From NCBI GenBank assembly GCA_002104905.1, contig MCFE01000557.1:1-58372 (forward strand): DNA of 58,372 bases, read 5' to 3'. Below the pieces are notes generated by a model. That model was not told the DNA's origin. It was given only the letters and a program-made list of their open reading frames with translations, and made no database searches. Positions within the stretch are counted from its first letter, which is position 1. Each line of letters begins with the position of its first letter. Positions 48,592 to 58,372 of the stretch are shown here, one piece after another. Origin of the DNA: Basidiobolus meristosporus CBS 931.73 (taxonomy: Eukaryota; Basidiobolomycota; Basidiobolomycetes; Basidiobolales; Basidiobolaceae). The position numbers and the translations under genes are program-made.

Positions 48592-48653
48592 TGTTGTAAA
48601 AATTCATAATTCCACCTAAATACTCACCTAACTTAGTCACTTAGATCATTACC
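48592..48653 (+). mobile_element. Truncated LTR, copy B
   Basis: The first ~62 bp match copies A and C, from TGTTGTAAAAATTCAT to 'gatcattacc'. The match then stops at a TTAGGGG seam (48654-48660), where the non-LTR element begins. The rest of this LTR is not found elsewhere in the window, as expected if the chromosome once ended here. Confidence 0.75.
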
Positions 48654-48668
48654 TTAGGGGAGGGAAAG

Positions 48669-48725
48669 TCACCAAGTTGGTGAAATCTTTATTTGAGTTA
48701 AGAACTAATCTAAGTACAAATAAAG
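48669..48725 (-). other. 3'-terminal double hairpin of element 1
   Basis: Outer stem CTTTATTTG/CAAATAAAG (48687-48695 with 48717-48725) has 9 perfect pairs. Between it and the 3' end is an inverted repeat TCACCAA/TTGGTGA at 48669-48683. The same pair of structures is present at the 3' ends of elements 2, 3 and 4. Confidence 0.75.
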
Positions 48726-48741
48726 AAGCCAATTCAGAGGT

Positions 48742-51216
48742 CTAGAACCTCTCTAATAAGTAATCTAATTTATGTTTTGTTTCATCTCTAATGTTTGTTT
48801 CAATAAAGTAAAGCTCATCAGGGGTAAATATAAAATTCAGGGGTTTTGGGGGAAGTACAAATTGTAGATGTTTCTGATCAATATAATCCAAGACTGGAAT
48901 CCAGCCTGGGATTAGGTGTAGTAGGAAAGGTGTGTGGACTTGTAAGTAGCTCTGCCACATAGATGTTAGATGGTCCTGAGCCAGTAGTCTTGGTTTCTCT
49001 GCTTTTTGAAGTTTTGAAGCAAGCTCTGTTACTACAGCAGAGCCAACCAGGGTGTGCCAGCAAGAAGATTTCAGGGAGGAGTTAGATTGAAGCCATTGTT
49101 TGATGGAGGGGTTATGTGATTTCTGAAGTTTGACTAGGAAGGAAGCCTGGAGATAGATCATTTGGATTTGGTATGGGTAGAACCCAAAGGCTCCATCAGT
49201 TGCATGGATATAGGGAGATACTGGAAGATAAGGTACCAAGGATCTGATACACTGATGGAGAAATTTATCCAGGTGGTGAAGTTCTCTGGAGGTTAGGGGT
49301 ATAATGTGGAGACCAAATTCAAGTACTGGCAGTACATACTGCTTCAGAAGTATAGGGATCTTTTGAATTGGAGTGTCTGGAGTGACTACTACCAGAAGCT
49401 TTTTGAGAGCCTGTTGGGCAAGACGGATCCTATTATTCAGGTGGAGCTTTGAGCCAATCCCATGTTGACAAAACAGCAGACCTAGATATATTGCAGTTTG
49501 TTGTGGCAGAATGCTAGTGTTCTGTATAGTTGTAGTGCACCCAATTGGGACTGTCTTGGAAATTGAGAGTGAGAGGTTGTTGGCAGCCAAGTACTTCTCA
49601 ATGATGGCAGTGTCTGCTATGGGATTAGGAGTAGCAATCTTGATATCATCTGCATAGAGAGTTAGTAGTGGATAGGGAGAGTCTGGTGAGGGGCCTTTTG
49701 GAAATAAAGGAAAGTTGTGTAGGAATATCACAAATAGTAAGGGACCTAGTACAGATCCTTGGACTACTCTATTTGGAACCTCATAGGTCTCTGATGTGCA
49801 ACTTGGATGCAAAATTTTGGCTGAGTTCTCACAAAATAGAGAACATGCAAGAAGGGTCATTGGTAGTGTGGTAACAGCTAATAGCTTTCTCCAAAGCAGA
49901 GCTCTGTCCACAGAGTCAAAGGCTTTAGTAATGTCAAACAGAATGGTTGGCAATGAGAATTGAAGTGAATGATCATGGCTTAGCACTACAGCCATATCCA
50001 AGGAGAATTTGGGCAAGAAGCCAAACTGAGAAGGATGGAATGGATATAGTTGAGATTGCAAGGATCTTGCTATTATAAGCTCAAAGATTTTCCTGCAGGT
50101 TGGGAGGAGTGAAACTGGCCAGTAAGAACCTGGGAGTGAGTGTTTCCCCTTCCCTTTGTATAAGGGTATTACATTTGCCTGTGACCAGGCCTTTGGGGTA
50201 GTCAATTGTTTGGCACAGATAGAGTAGAATGGGATAAGTAAGTGACTCATTTTGGAGTAGCACACCTGGAGTAGATTGTAGGTAATCAAGTCATGTCCAG
50301 GTGCAGTATTTGCAGGAAGCTTCTATAAAATTTTCTCCAGAAGCTTGGCTGAAATCAAAATTGGAGATGTTGGACTGCTGGATATGTTACCAGTATGGTA
50401 GAAAGGAGGAGTGGGATGCATGGATGAATCAAAGAATATAGGGGCCAGTTTGTCTGGTGATGGTGTACTCCTTGCTTGCAGTCTCATGGCTTTGTATACT
50501 TTTGATATGGACCTTGTGGTGGCATTCATATTTACTAAGGGCAAGGTATCCATGATATGAGCCCATAATCTAGTATACTCAGTGATCTGTAGTGACTTGG
50601 AGTAGGAGATTGCGCTTTCCAGGAGGTTCTGTGTTTTTGGGTTAGGGAAACATAGGTAGCTGGAATTTAAGGCAGAAATGATGGACTTCCATTTAAGTTG
50701 GTTTGCAGATGGCTTTTGGTAGGACTTGGTGGGCAGGGCCAGACAACCAGTGATTATGATGAAATGCTGGTAAAATAGCCATAATGCATTTATATCATCA
50801 CAAATCCATGCAGGTAAGCTGGGAAATGCATATTCTGTAAGCAAGGATAGGTAGTTGGCAAAGTTGTGTGTCTGTGATATTGAAGCTTTGGCTGGCAGGA
50901 TTGTAAATGGCTGAAGAAGGGTGCTAATTGGTAGGGTTTTTCTGGCAGAAAGGATAATATGTATTGGCTTGTGATCAGATTTCTCTAGTGAACCACAGCT
51001 GATATCCTCTGGAATGCTTGTAACCTGGTGGATGTACTGTAAGGCAGCTGGAGTAGCTGTTACCCAGTCAACACAACGTTGAGCTTGCTGAGTGTTTACA
51101 GTGACCAGATGGTTTTGTTGGAGGAACTTTGTAAAGTGCTCCTCTTGGGTTCTAAGTCTGGATGAAATAGTGGTGATATTTTCAGGGTGGGGAATATTTT
51201 TATCTCCCACTACCAT
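48742..51216 (-). pseudogene. Endonuclease-reverse transcriptase ORF of element 1, one in-frame TAG
   Basis: From the right: MVVGDKNIPHPENIT (the GDxN motif of APE endonucleases) and SLEKSDHKPIHIIL (the SDHxP motif). Then follows the reverse transcriptase: NVIPLYKGKGKH, FDITKAFDSVDRALLWRKL, VVQGSVLGPLLFVIF and LTLYADDIKIATP, whose YADD is the catalytic box. The C-terminal region ends KLDYLLERF. The frame is continuous over ~820 codons except for a single TAG at 50323-50325, between LLEKIL and KLPANTAPGHD. The upstream part of the endonuclease, with the first catalytic residues, is missing. So this copy is inactive for two reasons, but only mildly decayed. Confidence 0.88.
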
Positions 51217-51260
51217 ACAAGGGATTGATAGGGGGGGAGACAGTGACCAACAGGTGAAAT

Positions 51261-51282
51261 CTTTATTTCAGTTGAAACAAAG
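51261..51282 (-). other. 3' hairpin of element 2 with compensatory change
   Basis: The plus strand reads CTTTATTTC-agtt-GAAACAAAG. Compared with the other three elements, the loop-closing pair is swapped (G-C to C-G), one internal pair becomes a G-U-type wobble in the RNA, and the loop is cut from ~20 to 4 nt. The stem is still nine pairs long. Confidence 0.7.
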
Positions 51283-51291
51283 AAGCCAGCG

Positions 51292-51842
51292 CTACTGTTG
51301 TAGCTTTGATACAAGAGTATGTAGCTGAGGGGATATTGTAGGTAAGTTAATAAGAAGTGATGACAGCTCTTCAGTGCTCAAGACACTGTTCAGTGGGAAG
51401 GGGGGTAGCAAGAGAGGTAAGAATGACTTGTGAACAACATCAATGAGGGGAATGTGATAAGGATTGATATTCATCATAAAGGGAGTGTGATGCTGCAGAT
51501 ATTGCTGCCAAAGATCTGTCAAGTACTTCAGGTAGGCCAGCTTGGGTTTTTCTGACTGCAGAATATAGTGAGCAAACTTCTTGACTTCAGGATCTCCAAG
51601 TATAGTTCTCCAGCAGGAGCCAGGTGTTGTGTGGTGTGTTCTCTTCCAGGCCTTAATCAGTGGGTTGTTGCAGTTGTGAAGTCTGAGGTATAATCTGGTT
51701 CTAAGGTAGAGAAGTCTGATCTTATAGGGCATAAACCCAAAAGCACCAAGAATAGCATGTCTGTAGGGGCATTCAGGCAAATGAGGCACCAAGGAGGTAA
51801 TGCACCATACTGCAAACTTGTCAAGCTTAGTGCAGTCTCTAG
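51292..51842 (-). pseudogene. C-terminal part of element 2 RT polyprotein
   Basis: Open for ~184 codons after the LTR insertion point. It reads FAVWCITSLVPHLPECPYRH, AILGAFGFMPYKIRLLYLRT and CWRTILGDPEVKKFA, and stops at 51292 (LHTLVSKLQQ). It is collinear with the C-terminus of element 1 (SLVPYLPVSPYIHATDGAFG). Confidence 0.85.
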
Positions 51843-52192
51843 TGTTGTAAAAATTCGTATTTTCCACCTAAATATTCACCTAACTTAGTCACTTAGATCA
51901 TCACCTTCAAATCCTAGAGAATACTGACCAAATTCCTTGTCGGGATTTACTTAGAATATTTTCACCAAAATACCAGGTACCCAGAACATGAAAATTCTCA
52001 AAGTTGTCTAAACAGCCCCAAACTTTGCACACATGTTCTTGGGACCTTCCTTAACCTATTCTACGTGTTTGTAATGCCAAGACCATGTAAAAGTATAAAT
52101 ACCACTTTTACATTCAATAAATCATTAAGTGAAAACCACATAATCTACTTGTTCTCCCAATCACTTCCAATATCTCCAAGACTCTTACAACA
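51843..52192 (+). mobile_element. Solo LTR (copia-like family), copy C
   Basis: 350 bp from TGTTGTAAAAATTCGT to TCTTACAACA. It is flanked by a perfect 5-bp target duplication TCTAG (51838-51842 and 52193-52197). It splits the RT reading frame of element 2. Confidence 0.93.
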
Positions 52193-52427
52193 TCTAGAAG
52201 TAAGAGAGAGAAGTGGTAAGCCAAATTCCAGGACAGGGAAGACAAACTGCTTGAGTAGAAGAAGGCAGTTGGGAGCTGAAGTTGTAGGAGGAGTAACAGC
52301 CAGTAGCTTGTGGAGTGCCTGTCTTGCCAGGATAATTCTCTTCTTCAGGTGTGCTCCAGAGTCTAGTCCAGTAGGAAGGAAAGGAAAGCCAAGATATGTA
52401 GCAGAAACCTGAGCAGGTAGAGTGGAG
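52193..52427 (-). pseudogene. Middle block of element 2 RT polyprotein
   Basis: One reading frame from the LTR element boundary to the solo LTR boundary gives VSATYLGFPFLPTGLDSGAH, LKKRIILARQALHKLLAVT and LLKQFVFPVLEFGLPLLSLT. It matches TAIYLGLLFCQHGIGSKLHL and the following region of element 1. Confidence 0.85.
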
Positions 52428-52776
52428 TGTTGCAATATTCTGAGGAGTATTGGAAGTGATGTGGAGAACTAGAAGATTTACATGTTATTCACTTGTAGAT
52501 TTATTGATCAAAAGTATAGTATTTATACTTTTGATAAAGTAGAGGAAACAAACGTGTAGAGTTTGTTAAGGAAGGTCCCAAGAATATGTGTGCAAAGTTT
52601 GGGGTCTTTTGGATGACTTTGAGAAAAATAATAATCTGGGTACCTGACAATTTGGTGAAAATATTCTAAGTAAATCCCGACAAGAAATCTAGTCAGGACA
52701 GAATGCTAATCACAGAATAAGATCTATGTGACTAAGTTAGCATGAATATTTAGGTGACAATTCAATAATTACAACA
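52428..52776 (-). repeat. Left LTR (3' LTR) of the complete element
   Basis: 349 bp, TGTTGCAATATTC to AATTACAACA on the plus strand. It is related but not identical to LTR copies A, B and C, which lie in the opposite orientation. Confidence 0.92.
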
Positions 52777-55382
52777 CTCCCACTCAACAAAATATTCATG
52801 AGTAATAAATACATATTGTGAGTGTGCAATCTGTAATAAGCGTATAAGATTTAACTGTTTTGCATACTGGACTAATATATTATCCAAAGGTGTATGCATT
52901 TGTGTTCAACTTAATAGAACAAGTAACTTGGAATTCAGCATGCATATCTACTTAGTAATATGCCTAAAAATCTGAATGATCTGATCATAATACTTATCAT
53001 CAACTTTGATCAGTTGTACGGGCTTGAATAATAAGCTGAGTCTAATTGACAGATCGTAATAATAGTATATAGCCTCTGGGCTATTCAATGCTTCTTATTT
53101 GAGCAAAATTGACCCACTTTTGGTCAAGTTAAGGTTTTGTCATTTACAGCAGATCTGGAGTTTCCTTATTTCCGGCCAACAGTCTAATCCATTTAGACAA
53201 CTTCACTGTGTGTCCATATTAGGCTCAGGGACAGTTACTTCCATCATATAGATGCTATATGAGGTAAAAAATAGTGACCTACTTTGGGTCAAGTTAAGGT
53301 TTTGTCATTTACGCCTGATCCGGATTATCCTTGTTTCCTGGCACTGTGGCACATATAACATGGCCAAAAAAAGAAGGTTTTTGCTCAACTCTGAGCTGGG
53401 ATGGCCTGCTCCCACTTGAACCACGTCTGTTTAGTGATTCAGATCCACAAATATGATCTAGAATGGTCATCTTTGTCTTCTTTAAATAGCAATAACTTTC
53501 TTTGGACTGATTACTTCATATGCGGTAGATTCAAAGTCCATTTGCTTCTTGATTTACCCAGTTTGGTATTGGACAACACCATGGGTTGTTTGGTAGCTAT
53601 TCTTAGAGTGCTTCTACTGATTTGGATTGATACAGCTGCTTTTGTCTTATCAGAATATACTTGTAGAATAGAGATTGGCGCTTTTCCAGAAGTGAGATTC
53701 TCCTTAACAAGGGCTTTGATTATCCTTATTCTCCTGATAGTTATTTTCAACCTTGAGCTCGGTTTCCAAGGCTAACTGATCTTCTCAGTGTCTTCAGAAT
53801 CCATAAAAAAACCATCTGGTTGATCCTTGCACCTTTTTCTTTCAGCTCCATAGACAGCAGACATCAAGACTTCTGCACTAAATAATCTGTTCCAATATAT
53901 ACTACAATATCTAACAGATCCTGTTGAAGTTTCAAGGCTCTTCTGGGGTTTCTAGCTTGAGAACTTCGTACAAGAGGCTCCATAGAACATATTTGCATTG
54001 CCAGATAGTCCAAATATGGCCTACATAAGTTTTGGCACCATTTGGGAAGTACCCTAGTTTGCGGTAGTAGTATTTTCCATTTTTTCTTCTTTTCTTTTTC
54101 TGCTGATGACCCAGGGATAATTCCTTTTGTGGGGTGGTTCTGGACTTCCTTGCAGGTGGGACCACGGGGTTTTTGAGCACAAGAGTCTCCATGACATCAT
54201 TGTTCCATAATATCTGACTATTTGAGAGTGAAATAATCAAAATCGGCATCCACTTAGATCATTCATAACTTTTGATAGAGTTGACCAAATTTGATCAAAT
54301 AAACTGCATTTGATAGCTAGCTTCATCAATACTTCGGTATCAGACTCCAATATATCAGTATTTTGAGTTGCAGAACTTGGCGGTGACTTGATCAATCAAA
54401 ATTCTTTTGATCTGATCCAGAGAAGTTAAATATCACCAAGTGTTTTCTCCCACTGTAATAAGTGATATATATATAACAAGTATAAAGTACTGTGTTATCT
54501 TCTGAGTGGCTCTTAGCTGTGTACTGACCAACTGTTGCTTGGTTGTATACTCCAATCAGGCTTGCAATTATATGCTTCACTCCTTTGGCTGGCGGTAGAA
54601 TCTTCATGAGTTGATTTTGCTAAATTTGTATAATACTTTCTCCCACTGTTTTGAGACTTAAACAGAGTGATAGCACGTCTAACAGCTCCATATTTAGCTC
54701 CTGGTACACTGGTTTCAGTATCAAAACACTTGATACAATTATAGCATTCTTCTAATGGATTGTGTAGTACATATCCGTACTCCAGGTGGATATATATGTA
54801 TTATACATCATTGGGATCCTTACAATTCAGGAAGCTTGTTTCTGAGATCTTTTTCCATCAGTAGATAGTCCAGAATGGCGGCTAACAGCTCCAGTATTTG
54901 CATTCTCAGCTGTATTTTGAGTGGCAACAGATTTTTGGTAAAATCCTCCTCCGGCAATCATTAATAATGATCTAACTTTTTTTTTTTTTGCAATTCAGGA
55001 TAATATCCTATCCAAGAGCTCGTCTAACAGTCAATTGGGGTCATATGAATACATATTGCAGTATATTTCATTGTAGATCTGGACTCTCAATTGCTGGAAT
55101 TACGCAATTTTCTTCAGTAGTGGTAGAGCACCAACATACTATATTTCTTGACACAATTACATGCCAGTTTGATTGACTCTTCTTCATAACTAACTTGGAT
55201 AGTTACTGAAGGCATCTTTTGAAGGCAAGGCCTTCTTCTCCACAGCAATATCCTCATAACCATAGTCCTTTAGCAGCGGTAGTCTTCTTTAACCTTAGCA
55301 GAGCAATAGTGCGGAAAGTCTTTCTCCAGACTAGCAGAAAAGGATCCAAAGCATAGTAGACACCAAGAGGACAGCAAGCTCG

Positions 55383-55394
55383 GGGCTCATAACC
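55383..55394 (-). promoter_or_regulatory. Primer-binding site matching the anticodon arm of initiator tRNA-Met
   Basis: The plus strand reads GGGCTCATAACC, identical to the anticodon arm of eukaryotic initiator tRNA-Met, directly next to the 5' LTR. Drosophila copia and some relatives are primed by an initiator tRNA cut in the anticodon loop; a match at this internal site instead of the tRNA 3' end points to the same half-tRNA mechanism. Confidence 0.7.
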
Positions 55395-55743
55395 TGTTGC
55401 AATATTCTGAGGAGTATTGGAAGTGATGTGGAGAACTAGAAGATTTACATGTTATTCACTTGTAGATTTATTGATCAAAAGTATAGTATTTATACTTTTG
55501 ATAAAGTAGAGGAAACAAACGTGTAGAGTTTGTTAAGGAAGGTCCCAAGAATATGTGTGCAAAGTTTGGGGTCTTTTGGATGACTTTGAGAAAAATAATA
55601 ATCTGGGTACCTGACAATTTGGTGAAAATATTCTAAGTAAATCCCGACAAGAAATCTAGTCAGGACAGAATGCTAATCACAGAATAAGATCTATGTGACT
55701 AAGTTAGCATGAATATTTAGGTGACAATTCAATAATTACAACA
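55395..55743 (-). repeat. Right LTR (5' LTR) of the complete element
   Basis: 349 bp. I found no difference from the left LTR when reading line by line, which implies a recent insertion. Confidence 0.92.
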
Positions 55744-55942
55744 TGGAGTTCTCCAAGTTGATGGGAGAGCCCAAAGGTACTGTCTTTGCAATGGAAAGCT
55801 GGAGATTATTCTTCTGCAGATACTGGTGGATGGTCTGGGAGTCTTGTTGCACATTGGAGGAGGATATTCTGATGTCATCAGCAAAGAGAGTAACCAGGCT
55901 GTCAGCTGAGAGTCTTGGGAAGTCATTCAGGAAGATGGCAAC
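55744..55942 (-). pseudogene. RT catalytic block of element 2
   Basis: Minus strand: VAIFLNDFPRLSADSLVTLF, ADDIRISSSNVQQDSQTIHQ and LQLSIAKTVPLGSPINLEN. The FADD catalytic box corresponds to YADD in element 1. The upstream RT and endonuclease are missing. Confidence 0.85.
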
Positions 55943-55962
55943 TTAGGGTAGGGGAGGGAAAG

Positions 55963-56019
55963 TCACCAAGGTAGGTGAAATCTTTATTTGAATGCAGACA
56001 AGTCTAACTCCAAATAAAG
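55963..56019 (-). other. 3'-terminal double hairpin of element 3
   Basis: CTTTATTTG (55982-55990) pairs with CAAATAAAG (56011-56019). TCACC-aaggta-GGTGA lies at 55963-55978. Confidence 0.75.
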
Positions 56020-56076
56020 AAGCCAGCTGGGAATAGAAGATTCCCAAAGTAAACACTAAGTTGAATATGAATAAAT

Positions 56077-56805
56077 CTAAGCTAAAGTTAAGGCAGTATC
56101 CCAGAGTACACTGGAGTTCAGGTTCATGGGGGAGTGAAGTAGATAAGCTTGAGAGATATAATAATCTTTGAGGAAGTGGGTAACAGCAGGTGAAGGGGAG
56201 TTTTTGATAAGTGAAGTGAATCTTGAGAGCAGAGATTCCTCTAATGAGAAGGTCTTGTAAACTGGAGAATCAGGAAACTCTTTAAAGGCATGGTCAGTAG
56301 GTTCCCAGTAAAACTGGTCAGAGACATTTTGAGAGAACTCTTTAGCAATACTTTTGTCAAGTACTACCTCCAGAGTGTGATTGTTGATAAATCTCATGTT
56401 AACAATCTTGGATAAATTGTAACCTTGTTGCTTGAGATACATCCTATGCTCAGATATAGGAATGAACTCCACATTGGCAAAGTAGCAGACAGCCCAGTCA
56501 GTAGCAGGAGGCAAATCAGAAGTAGCAGGAAACTTTCTTTTAGTCTTGGGAGGAGCAGCAGGATGTCTTGAGGAAGCAGGAGCAGGCTTTTTGACAGCTT
56601 CAGAGTAGGAAGAGTGAGCAGGAGCAGATGATTCTTGGGGAGTCTTGTTGACAGGAACAGCTGGCAGAGAGACAATAGATTCTTGCAGATCAGAGAAGGC
56701 AGAAAACAGCTTTTGAACTTGTTTCTTGAGTAAAGCATTTTCAGCTTCAACAAGTGCAAGCCTTTCCTCAAGGAAGGAAATCTGAAGGGAATGGAGTGAA
56801 GGCAT
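56077..56805 (-). CDS. ORF1/Gag-like retrotransposon protein, copy 1
   Basis: 242 residues from the ATG at 56805 (MPSLHSLQISFLEERL); the frame is open further upstream through the 5' repeat but without an ATG. A coiled coil comes first: LEERLALVEAENALLKKQVQ then KLFSAFSDLQESIV, with leucines at heptad spacing. A Pro/Ser/Ala-rich basic linker (APPKTKRKFPATSDLPPAT) follows. Then comes a compact domain, DWAVCYFANVEFIPISEHRM then YNLSKIVNMRFINNHTLEVV, possibly RRM-like as in LINE ORF1 proteins. The end is SSVLWDTALTLA. No CCHC knuckle is seen. The order coiled coil, linker, RNA-binding-type domain fits a LINE ORF1 product. Confidence 0.7.
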   Translation of the reverse strand: MPSLHSLQISFLEERLALVEAENALLKKQVQKLFSAFSDLQESIVSLPAVPVNKTPQESSAPAHSSYSEAVKKPAPASSRHPAAPPKTKRKFPATSDLPPATDWAVCYFANVEFIPISEHRMYLKQQGYNLSKIVNMRFINNHTLEVVLDKSIAKEFSQNVSDQFYWEPTDHAFKEFPDSPVYKTFSLEESLLSRFTSLIKNSPSPAVTHFLKDYYISQAYLLHSPMNLNSSVLWDTALTLA

Positions 56806-56982
56806 AAGAAATAAGAAGAAGAGGGTAAGATGGGGTGGGTGGGAGGGAAAATTAGCAGGGAGAAGAGAAGGAAGGAGCAAAAATTCCAGAAGTCAGAATT
56901 TATAGATGGATGGACAAGGGTAGATGGATGGATTATTCCTGGGTTAGGAAAATTAGCAGGGAGAAGAGAAGGGGAGGGAAAG

Positions 56983-57039
56983 TCACCAAGGTAGGTGAAA
57001 TCTTTATTTGATTTCAGACAAGTCTAACTACAAATAAAG
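56983..57039 (-). other. 3'-terminal double hairpin of element 4
   Basis: CTTTATTTG (57002-57010) pairs with CAAATAAAG (57031-57039). TCACC-aaggta-GGTGA lies at 56983-56998. Confidence 0.75.
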
Positions 57040-57096
57040 AAGCCAGCTGGGAATAGAAGATTCCCAAAGTAAACACTAAGTTGAATATGAATAAAT

Positions 57097-57825
57097 CTAA
57101 GCTAAAGTTAAGGCAGTATCCCAGAGTACACTGGAGTTCAGGTTCATGGGGGAGTGAAGTAGATAAGCTTGAGAGATATAATAATCTTTGAGGAAGTGGG
57201 TAACAGCAGGTGAAGGGGAGTTTTTGATAAGTGAAGTGAATCTTGAGAGCAGAGATTCCTCTAAGGAGAAGGTCTTGTAAACTGGAGAATCAGGAAACTC
57301 TTTAAAGGCATCGTCAGTAGGTTCCCGGTAAAGCTGGTCAGAGACATTTTGAGAGAACTCTTTAGCAATACTTTTGTCAAGTACTACCTCCAGAGTGTGA
57401 TGGTTGATAAATCTCATGTTGACAATCTTAGATAAGTTGTAACCTTGTTGCTTGAGATACATCCTATGCTCAGATATAGGAATAAACTCCACATTGGCAA
57501 AGTAGCAGACAGCCCAGTCAGTAGCAGGAGGCAAATCAGAAGTGGCAGGAAACTTTCTTTTGGTCTTGGGAGGAGCAGCAGGATGTCTTGAGGGAGCAGG
57601 AACAGACTTTTTGACAACTTCAGAGTAGGAAGAGTGAGCAGGAGCAGATGATTCTTGGGGAGTCTTGTTGGCACGAAGGGTTGGCACAGGGACAATAGAT
57701 TCTTGCAGATCAGAGAAGGCAGAAAAGAGCTTTTGAACTTGTTTCTTGAGTAGAGCATTTTCAGCTTCAACAAGTGCAAGCCTTTCCTCAAGGAAAGAAA
57801 TCTGAAGGGAATGGAGTGAAGGCAT
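57097..57825 (-). CDS. ORF1/Gag-like retrotransposon protein, copy 2
   Basis: 242 residues from the ATG at 57825. It is the same length as the copy at 56077 and has no frameshift between them. Differences (roughly fifteen residues) cluster in the linker (VSLPAVPV against VPVPTLRA; KKPAPASSR against KKSVPAPSR) and around YWEPTDHA against YREPTDDA. The coiled coil and C-terminal segments are nearly invariant. Equal length with substitutions only suggests that both copies were under coding constraint or are very young. Confidence 0.7.
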   Translation of the reverse strand: MPSLHSLQISFLEERLALVEAENALLKKQVQKLFSAFSDLQESIVPVPTLRANKTPQESSAPAHSSYSEVVKKSVPAPSRHPAAPPKTKRKFPATSDLPPATDWAVCYFANVEFIPISEHRMYLKQQGYNLSKIVNMRFINHHTLEVVLDKSIAKEFSQNVSDQLYREPTDDAFKEFPDSPVYKTFSLEESLLSRFTSLIKNSPSPAVTHFLKDYYISQAYLLHSPMNLNSSVLWDTALTLA

Positions 57826-57898
57826 AAGAAATAAGAAGAAGAGGGTAAGATGGGGTGGGTGGGAGGGAAAATTAGCAGGGAGAAGAGAAGGAAGGAGC

Positions 57899-58151
57899 AA
57901 AATCAGAAGTCAGAATTTATAGATGGATGGACAAGGGTAGATGGATGATTATCTGGGTTAGGAAAATTAGCAGGGAGAAGAGAAGGAAGGAGCAAAAATT
58001 CCAGAAGTCAGAATTTATAGATGGATGGACAAGGGTAGATGGATGGATTATTCCTGGGTTAGGAAAATTAGCAGGGAGAAGAGAAGGAAGGAGCAAAAAT
58101 TCCAGAAGTCAGAATTTATAGATGGATGGACAAGGGTAGATGGATGGATTA
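57899..58151 (-). repeat. Tandem ~101-bp 5' monomers with TATA box
   Basis: Three head-to-tail copies, the first slightly diverged, the last cut by the telomere. Each contains on the minus strand 'ccatctataaattctgact', a TATA-like box, and a pyrimidine-rich stretch (tccttctcttctccctgc). One further copy lies upstream of ORF1 in element 3 (56881-56970). They sit where a retroelement promoter is expected, as with promoter monomers of mouse L1. Confidence 0.8.
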
Positions 58152-58372
58152 TTAGGGTTAGGGTTAGGGTTAGGGTTAGGGTTAGGGTTAGGGTTAGGGT
58201 TAGGGTTAGGTTAGGGTTAGGGTTAGGGTTAGGGTTAGGGTTAGGGTTAGGGTTAGGGTTAGGGTTAGGGTTAGGGTTAGGGTTAGGGTTAGGGTTAGGG
58301 TTAGGGTTAGGGTTAGGGTTAGGGTTAGGGTTAGGGTTAGGGTTAGGGTTAGGGTTAGGGTTAGGGTTAGGG
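58152..58372 (+). repeat. Telomere, TTAGGG repeats
   Basis: About 36 TTAGGG repeats to the window end, G-rich strand running 5'->3' toward the end, as at a right chromosome end. One unit near 58205 is TTAGG (one G short). The first unit begins at a monomer position where 'ggattatt' already supplies TT. Confidence 0.98.

Follow-up and report, generated by a model that had tools for sequence, protein, structure and literature searches.

The window analysed here is one whole contig (C821; 58,372 bases) of the 89.0-Mb assembly of Basidiobolus meristosporus CBS 931.73, which comprises 1311 contigs. At its telomeric end, four non-long terminal repeat (non-LTR) retrotransposon units lie head to tail (48660-58153) on a single strand, with their 5' ends facing the TTAGGG cap. 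These elements add a further example to a rare but already known class of telomere parasites. We consider it probable that they are telomere-restricted long interspersed nuclear elements (LINEs) with an apurinic/apyrimidinic endonuclease (APE) type of enzyme, accompanied by hitch-hikers that encode only the first open reading frame (ORF1), and that both are added at breaks seeded by telomerase. As such they would be parasites or passengers of telomere repair, not a system of telomere maintenance.

The 3' tails of the four units (GTCACC...GGTGAAATCTTTATTT) begin at 48668, 51243, 55962 and 56982 on the same strand, in agreement with an initial annotation of this DNA that had described four units in one orientation with their 3' ends inward. 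It also had each inner unit truncated exactly at the next 3' end; truncation at the start of the next 3' tail is indeed seen at each junction, but to within 0-12 nt, and telomeric letters are present at three of the four junctions (none at unit 4). Each junction lies where the preceding sequence diverges from its relatives. The base of the array is a truncated LTR fragment (48592-48655, plus strand), which provided the break point: a related LTR reads ACCTT/CAAATCC, the window ACCTT/AGGG. A single telomeric hexamer TTAGGG (48654-48659, plus strand), whose first two T are common to the LTR, separates the broken LTR from unit 1, so that native CTT is followed by AGGG. Unit 1 (48660-51229, minus strand) belongs to family A and consists of a 5'-truncated ORF2 with part of the endonuclease and the reverse transcriptase (RT; RVT_1, 1.2e-17), one in-frame stop near 50320, and up to 97% identity to other genomic A copies. 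Unit 2 (51234-55941, minus strand) begins where a native T is followed by AGGG. It is 5'-truncated, retains a C-terminal part of ORF2, contains two LTR insertions that the initial annotation had not mentioned, and is assigned to family C by 97% identity over 182 aa of ORF2 and by the C-type tail at 51243. Both inner units thus come from ORF2-coding families, as had been claimed, but not from one family. Unit 3 (55954-56972, minus strand) follows the telomeric filler CTTAGGGTAGGG with a non-native C (55942-55953, plus strand; related copy ggcaa/ACAG), and is truncated within its 5' repeat region. Together with the outermost unit 4 (56973-58153, minus strand) it belongs to the ORF1-only family B, with an ORF1 of 242 aa in each (56077-56805 and 57097-57825, both minus strand). 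The ORF1 of unit 4 has a relative in Basidiobolus ranarum (49% identical over 67%), and the 5' region of this unit carries three 101-bp tandem repeats (57866-58162, plus strand) which may serve as promoter repeats. The (TTAGGG)n cap (58152-58372, plus strand) was begun on a native TT, where a 101-bp repeat elsewhere reads ggattatt/CCTGG. By eye, no target duplications flanking the four units were seen in the window sequence, as had also been stated earlier; 5-bp duplications accompany only the nested LTR insertions.

The polarity of the array recurs throughout the genome. Allowing up to two mismatches, the 3' tail occurs 926 times in the assembly (839 forward, 87 reverse). Exact tails were analysed for the first 100 places in each of two lists (200 of 382), which biases the sample toward young copies, and none of the 200 is farther than 24.3 kb from the end that its 5' side faces. 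On contigs longer than 60 kb, 158 of 158 listed tails are nearer the faced end, which excludes an array by chance; of the other 42, on shorter contigs, 8 are nearer the opposite end. All 82 RT copies scored (82 of 1384 candidates; in a first look at DNA, 40 of 493 candidates were scored) are within 22.7 kb of the faced end. ORF1/ORF2 boundaries were searched with a pattern of fixed flanks, which misses copies with altered flanks; among the 100 listed of 168, all 77 on contigs longer than 60 kb are nearer the faced end, the farthest at 29 kb. The distribution of family C is based on this boundary pattern and on fetched contig ends, in which 66 of 66 tails have one polarity. Contig C979 carries tails on both sides, 9 at the left end and 8 close to the right one, mirrored in orientation. 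Elements lying mostly at internal loci or in mixed orientations, which the initial annotation had named as contrary to its reading, did not occur among the listed copies. Since repeats break assemblies, any repeat may accumulate at contig ends, and the present assembly is fragmented into 1311 contigs. Such an artefact would explain neither the orientation of 158 of 158 tails nor the TTAGGG caps at many ends. Furthermore, a control LTR family with more than 4000 matches is dispersed in both orientations (2140 forward, 1948 reverse), and of the 100 places listed for it 62 are on contigs longer than 60 kb, where 27 are nearer the faced end and 10 within 25 kb of it, with a median distance of 100 kb. 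We therefore reject piling at contig ends as highly improbable; the tail polarity together with the unbiased LTR control argues for elements that are restricted to telomeres.

Telomeric filler at the junctions is mostly short. In strict register, the telomeric tract beside the tail measures 4-12 nt in 166 of the 200 junctions, while 19 have fewer than 4 nt and 15 have 13 nt or more; the commonest lengths are 6 nt (58 junctions), 10 nt (27) and 5 nt (24). For 50 of the 66 fetched tails another copy shows the native continuation of the interrupted sequence. At least one native seed nucleotide in telomeric register is present in 34 of these 50 resolved LINE junctions, and 31 have 1-3 nt; telomere caps (arrays of six or more repeats) started on a native seed in 9 of 12 cases, 8 of them with 1-3 nt (counts of resolved rows, omitting 16 of 66 LINE and 7 of 19 cap rows). 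A non-native C precedes TTAGGG at three LINE junctions and one cap. More generally, C is the preceding base at 34 of 58 one-repeat LINE junctions and at 48 of 93 array starts, compared with an expectation of about 28% among A, C and T, and the two classes do not differ significantly in this base (p 0.08). Short seeds and a terminal C are also described for telomeres added to truncated ends in Magnaporthe oryzae (PMC7367193, in the part of that account available to us). The simplest account suggested by these junctions is that telomerase began to heal a break before the LINE was added.

A different origin of the filler is conceivable, in which the APE endonuclease cuts mature TTAGGG arrays, the element inserts in the manner of SART/TRAS, and distal loss leaves truncated units. 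APE-type endonuclease motifs are kept in A and C, which are 46% identical, and a search for TTAGG within 12 nt of the tail gave 144 matches (some tails counted twice). One truncated C unit carries a cap at one place (L016), and at another (L021) three repeats and then an E element follow it; this could likewise reflect insertion into an existing telomere, loss and gain being indistinguishable here. However, the caps span about 200 bp as assembled, and insertion at random within them should leave long tracts on the proximal side, while at least 16 telomeric nucleotides are found in only 10 of 200 junctions in strict register and in 24 of 200 at up to two edits. The seeds and the non-native C also resemble de novo addition rather than cutting of an array. 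The tract lengths disfavour insertion into long mature arrays, and altogether we regard a SART/TRAS-like origin as unlikely. Quite improbable is a filler templated by the element RNA itself, with about 1.5 CCCUAA units at the 3' end acting on broken ends of any kind as a telomerase template does. The tract lengths peak at 6 and 10 nt instead of spreading broadly, and the 3' neighbour of most listed copies starts with TTAGGG, so that read-through transcripts would carry CCCUAA. Nevertheless, filler length ranges from 0 to at least 17 nt, and the non-native C and the 1-3-nt seeds are common to telomere caps.

Telomerase itself appears to be retained. Its RNA-binding domain is represented by two exon-like matches (G000:C880:173109-173423), one with a stop inside the match, and TTAGGG-array starts not preceded by G number 119 forward and 5 reverse, a few contigs having more than one. 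Of 20 fetched stretches, 15 were counted as capped ends; the others are L010 and L024, which do not represent chromosome tips, L015 and L027, which end uncapped, and L028, which stops 2.2 kb short of its end. A search over about 8.4 kb found no element tail in 3 of the 15. Because of the telomerase domain matches and the tail-free capped ends, the elements are unlikely to be a telomere-maintenance system. The polarity, the truncation pattern and the coding/non-coding partners do resemble HTT arrays, as they would in a true equivalent of HeT-A/TART, with elements as the main means of chromosome-end upkeep. We reject this reading because of the domain matches, the TTAGGG caps (119 forward array starts) and the capped ends without a tail, and assign it a negligible probability. 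The initial annotation had taken HeT-A/TART as the nearest model, which these observations and the short, MoTeR-like fillers do not support; its view that repeated extension of the end gave a polar array under a telomerase-type telomere is supported, though the evidence points to breaks seeded by telomerase as the sites of addition instead of the bare DNA of an eroding end.

Some observations on the caps stand apart from the elements. Nearly every TTAGGG 24-mer is at a contig's plus end (7428 forward, 81 reverse), probably due to the assembler discarding the first read of each contig. At the end of contig C249 (L025, 8115-8187) the cap begins at the edge of a predicted tRNA-Lys gene within a cluster of 10 predicted tRNAs and with no element tail nearby, which looks like telomerase healing of a chromosome break. 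At the end of contig C81 (L014) the cap starts, by eye, within a copia-like gag-pol stretch, and the C that precedes TTAGGG is absent in an 87% identical relative.

Five kinds of element (A-E) share the 3' tail. Families A and C contain ORF1 plus an ORF2 for APE-type endonuclease and RT, and are about 46% identical in ORF2. Family B codes only for the 242-codon ORF1, and family E, well seen in one copy cut by a cap (L019), has an ORF1 of at least about 205 codons which is 45% identical to that of B. The ORF1 of B and E is distantly related to the C-terminal part of the A/C ORF1; in the window, relatedness of the C-terminal part of unit 3 ORF1 to ORF1 of A, C and E was shown via the unit 4 copy. 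Family D is represented only by pieces that run for at most about 560 bp until another junction or a cap, had no clear ORF in the one piece examined, and may be the 3' part of a longer element. The division of labour proposed in the initial annotation is therefore valid at the level of families, RT-coding versus ORF1-only. The order of inner RT units and outer ORF1 units is a local accident of the window; at L031 the element immediately below the cap has its two ORFs complete. The predicted fold of the 3' RNA ends has two hairpins with a C run behind them. Among the five families stem II does not vary, and stem I has one pair changed on both sides. Folding of single sequences goes beyond shuffled controls in C and E only, the A and B slices being cut inside stem I. 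Since mobilisation in trans would need such a shared 3' end, B, E and probably D may be mobilised by the enzyme of A or C.

The family A element at L031 has an ORF1 of 552 codons and an ORF2 of 949 codons in the same frame. Family A ORF1 has a Cys4 zinc-ribbon-like N-terminus (a sub-threshold Pfam match) and weak coiled-coil-like matches, and no Pfam family exceeded its cut-off on ORF1. The RT matches RVT_1 at 1.5e-20 in family A and 2.2e-25 in C, and its best-scoring solved relatives are LINE-1 ORF2p. N-terminal to the RT, ORF2 of A and C carries the endonuclease motifs NCNS, GDxN and SDH; Exo_endo_phos_2 passes in the relative P0001 (27.5 versus a cut-off of 27.4 bits), falls short of it in C and P0004, and gives no match in A. 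Scanning of nine ORF2 proteins for a C-terminal restriction-enzyme-like (REL) endonuclease found neither C-x1-3-C-x6-8-H-x3-4-C nor RHD/N. The ends of the units themselves show no terminal direct repeats, long repeats being found only between units or within nested LTR elements. By RT, endonuclease N-terminal to the RT and lack of LTRs, the predicted proteins place the families among APE-class non-LTR retrotransposons. A structure model of the ORF2 relative P0004, based on a five-sequence alignment, was not used (mean predicted local distance difference test score of 38.9). In the database, the protein K493DRAFT_348252 of B. meristosporus CBS 931.73 is a partial match (53% over 45% of the query).

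ORF2 continues in frame with ORF1 after TGA-CTA. The stop is TGA in 100 of 100 listed boundaries and TGACTA in 98, and TGA then CTA ends ORF1 in both A and C in 5 of 5 copies with a boundary; as copies within a family are young, the sharing between A and C weighs more than the counts within families. ORF2 has no Met before codon 59 in A or codon 142 in C, and both lie downstream of endonuclease motifs, so that a complete endonuclease cannot start at an internal AUG. UGA-CUA is a leaky stop context. The simplest reading of the conserved TGA-CTA and the lack of an upstream AUG in ORF2 is that an ORF1-ORF2 fusion would be made by UGA-CUA readthrough. Among known telomeric elements HeT-A needs a frameshift, and TART-B1 is presumed to use a separate start codon (PMC5009743, as far as the excerpt available goes); joining by readthrough may be unusual for a LINE. 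In 14 of the 82 scored RT copies the 949-codon frame has no stop inside the match. Pairwise ratios of nonsynonymous to synonymous substitutions are 0.12 for L031-L032, 0.30-0.41 for three other uninterrupted pairs and 0.37-0.56 where one partner is the interrupted copy of the window. These values fit a family in which some members were active recently.

From these observations we propose the following sequence of events. A chromosome end is lost through a break or erosion, as seen in units cut at arbitrary points. Telomerase would then add about 1-2 TTAGGG repeats on a native seed of 1-3 nt, as suggested by the resemblance of the junctions to real caps. The C run at the 3' end of the element RNA, preceded by the two hairpins, would pair with the freshly made ...GGG-3' terminus. 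The DNA does contain the hairpin sequences and the C run, whereas the pairing and the copying by ORF2 are deduced. The ORF2 protein, produced as a fusion with ORF1 by putative UGA-CUA readthrough, would copy the RNA with its 3' end inward and an often truncated 5' end outward, and would presumably also serve B, E and probably D. Finally telomerase would cap the new end, and repetition of the cycle would build a stack. If so, the ORF2 RT should favour GGG ends among primers ending in TTAGGG, TTAGGGTTA or random sequence. That we are dealing with a LINE lineage whose integration follows telomerase, with ends of about one repeat used as primer via the C run, and with UGA-CUA readthrough in addition, is a tentative proposal that may well be right. 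The target of integration would in that case be the healing of telomeres, in a fungus whose chromosomes are small and very numerous.

Several observations weigh against addition at telomerase-seeded ends or limit its support. At the junctions, sequence that is telomere-like over all 17 nt occurs in 24 of 200 at up to two edits and in 44 of 200 at up to three, so that with variant repeats included the strict count of 10 underestimates how common longer tracts are. No native seed is found in 16 of the 50 resolved junctions, and some have no telomeric filler; some additions may have occurred on bare ends or by microhomology. The 50 include two boundaries (L019, L027) that are counted doubly and three rows with a comparison copy that is telomeric too. 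Telomeric sequence at the 3' end of the RNA is another conceivable template for the filler. Certain junctions are found at more than one end (the 200 listed junctions give 190 distinct 17-mers), and stacks may therefore also spread by recombination or break-induced replication. The endonuclease is retained and may still cut telomeric DNA; in A, C, P0002 and P0004 its sequence has Asp at the position where the catalytic Glu is expected. The RNAalifold covariation term for the 3' stems is nil (+0.12, alignment-wide), and family D breaks two stem I pairs. Distances to ends rely on contigs numbered by lexical order of scaffold rank, with lengths interpolated from 22 known ones plus telomere positions, and 4 of the 82 RT distances are negative, the lowest being -2.4 kb. 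Identity shows no clear fall with distance from the end in the 82 RT copies (rho -0.17, p 0.13), and an age gradient along the stack was consequently dropped.

Two LTR elements have inserted into unit 2 and are later than it. A solo LTR (51843-52192, plus strand) is flanked by the target site duplication TCTAG (51838-51842 and 52193-52197). A 3.3-kb LTR retrotransposon (52428-55743) is flanked by TGGAG (52423-52427 and 55744-55748), has LTRs that are identical in 349 of 349 positions, and is placed on the minus strand solely by the inversion of its LTRs relative to the solo LTR. Its internal region of about 2.6 kb lacks an open frame of 150 codons, and it is perhaps a non-autonomous LTR element. 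In ORF2 of unit 1, comparison by eye with intact copies shows several apparent C-to-T/G-to-A transitions (R to W/Q, G to R, D to N), for which cytosine deamination in subtelomeric DNA is a possible cause.

Telomere-specific LINEs beside a retained telomerase are known from few lineages, and the fungal non-LTR cases MoTeR and FoTeR are of the REL type, as far as the available accounts go. A list of telomeric retrotransposons from 2023 comprises insects, Giardia, Chlorella, Pyricularia, anole and rotifers, and in the part available to us names no early-diverging fungus (PMC10088271); a literature search found no account of telomeric retrotransposons of Basidiobolus. An APE-type, multi-family case in an early-diverging fungus would add another independent origin. 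Moreover, the junctions look like still images in which healing by telomerase gives way to a retrotransposon, so that the hand-over from one to the other can be tested.

With HeT-A, TART and TAHRE of Drosophila, the elements share the inward 3' end, the end-added stacks and an ORF1-only partner of an RT element. Drosophila is described as lacking telomerase (PMC10088271, same part), unlike the present genome with its telomerase matches and a stack capped by TTAGGG. SART and TRAS of Bombyx and Tribolium are, in the passages available, APE-type LINEs with ORF1 and ORF2 in hosts with a telomerase gene, which require their 3' UTR (untranslated region), cut sequence-specifically and insert inside telomeric repeats, telomeric copies being reported as full-length (PMC4700185, PMC5537684). 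In the present case, tracts are short and truncation is common, in contrast to fixed-position insertion in long arrays. Short telomeric repeats also separate copies of the endonuclease-deficient Penelope-like elements Athena and Coprina, the latter fungal, which attach to exposed telomeric 3' ends and have a different RT class without endonuclease.

FoTeR of Fusarium oxysporum resembles the elements in being telomere-only, with the 5' end toward the terminus and 5' tandem repeats. It encodes an RT plus REL protein, its 3' side is followed by about 3 to 7 TAACCC copies, and the part of the account available to us does not describe ORF1-only families (PMC12857005). The CRE/MoTeR/FoTeR clade is also telomere-only with 5' ends outward, but has a REL endonuclease with a CCHC motif, and by this test on the predicted proteins the elements of B. 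meristosporus are not members. MoTeR1 and MoTeR2 of M. oryzae live in a TTAGGG host with 5' ends always toward the chromosome end, in head-to-tail arrays with TTAGGG tracts of half to more than 20 units between them, together with a non-autonomous partner sharing termini, and show truncation as well as new telomeres founded de novo on short seeds, according to the sections available (PMC7367193); their endonuclease is REL (PMC7367193, PMC12857005). Unlike MoTeR, the present system has an APE-type endonuclease before the RT, two ORFs and no REL motif found, and comprises five element kinds and 926 tails with junction tracts of mostly 4-12 nt. The fungal TTAGGG host, outward 5' ends, head-to-tail arrays, telomeric spacers and non-autonomous partners are common to both. 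The closest parallels are thus MoTeR/FoTeR and SART/TRAS, and the system works most like MoTeR.

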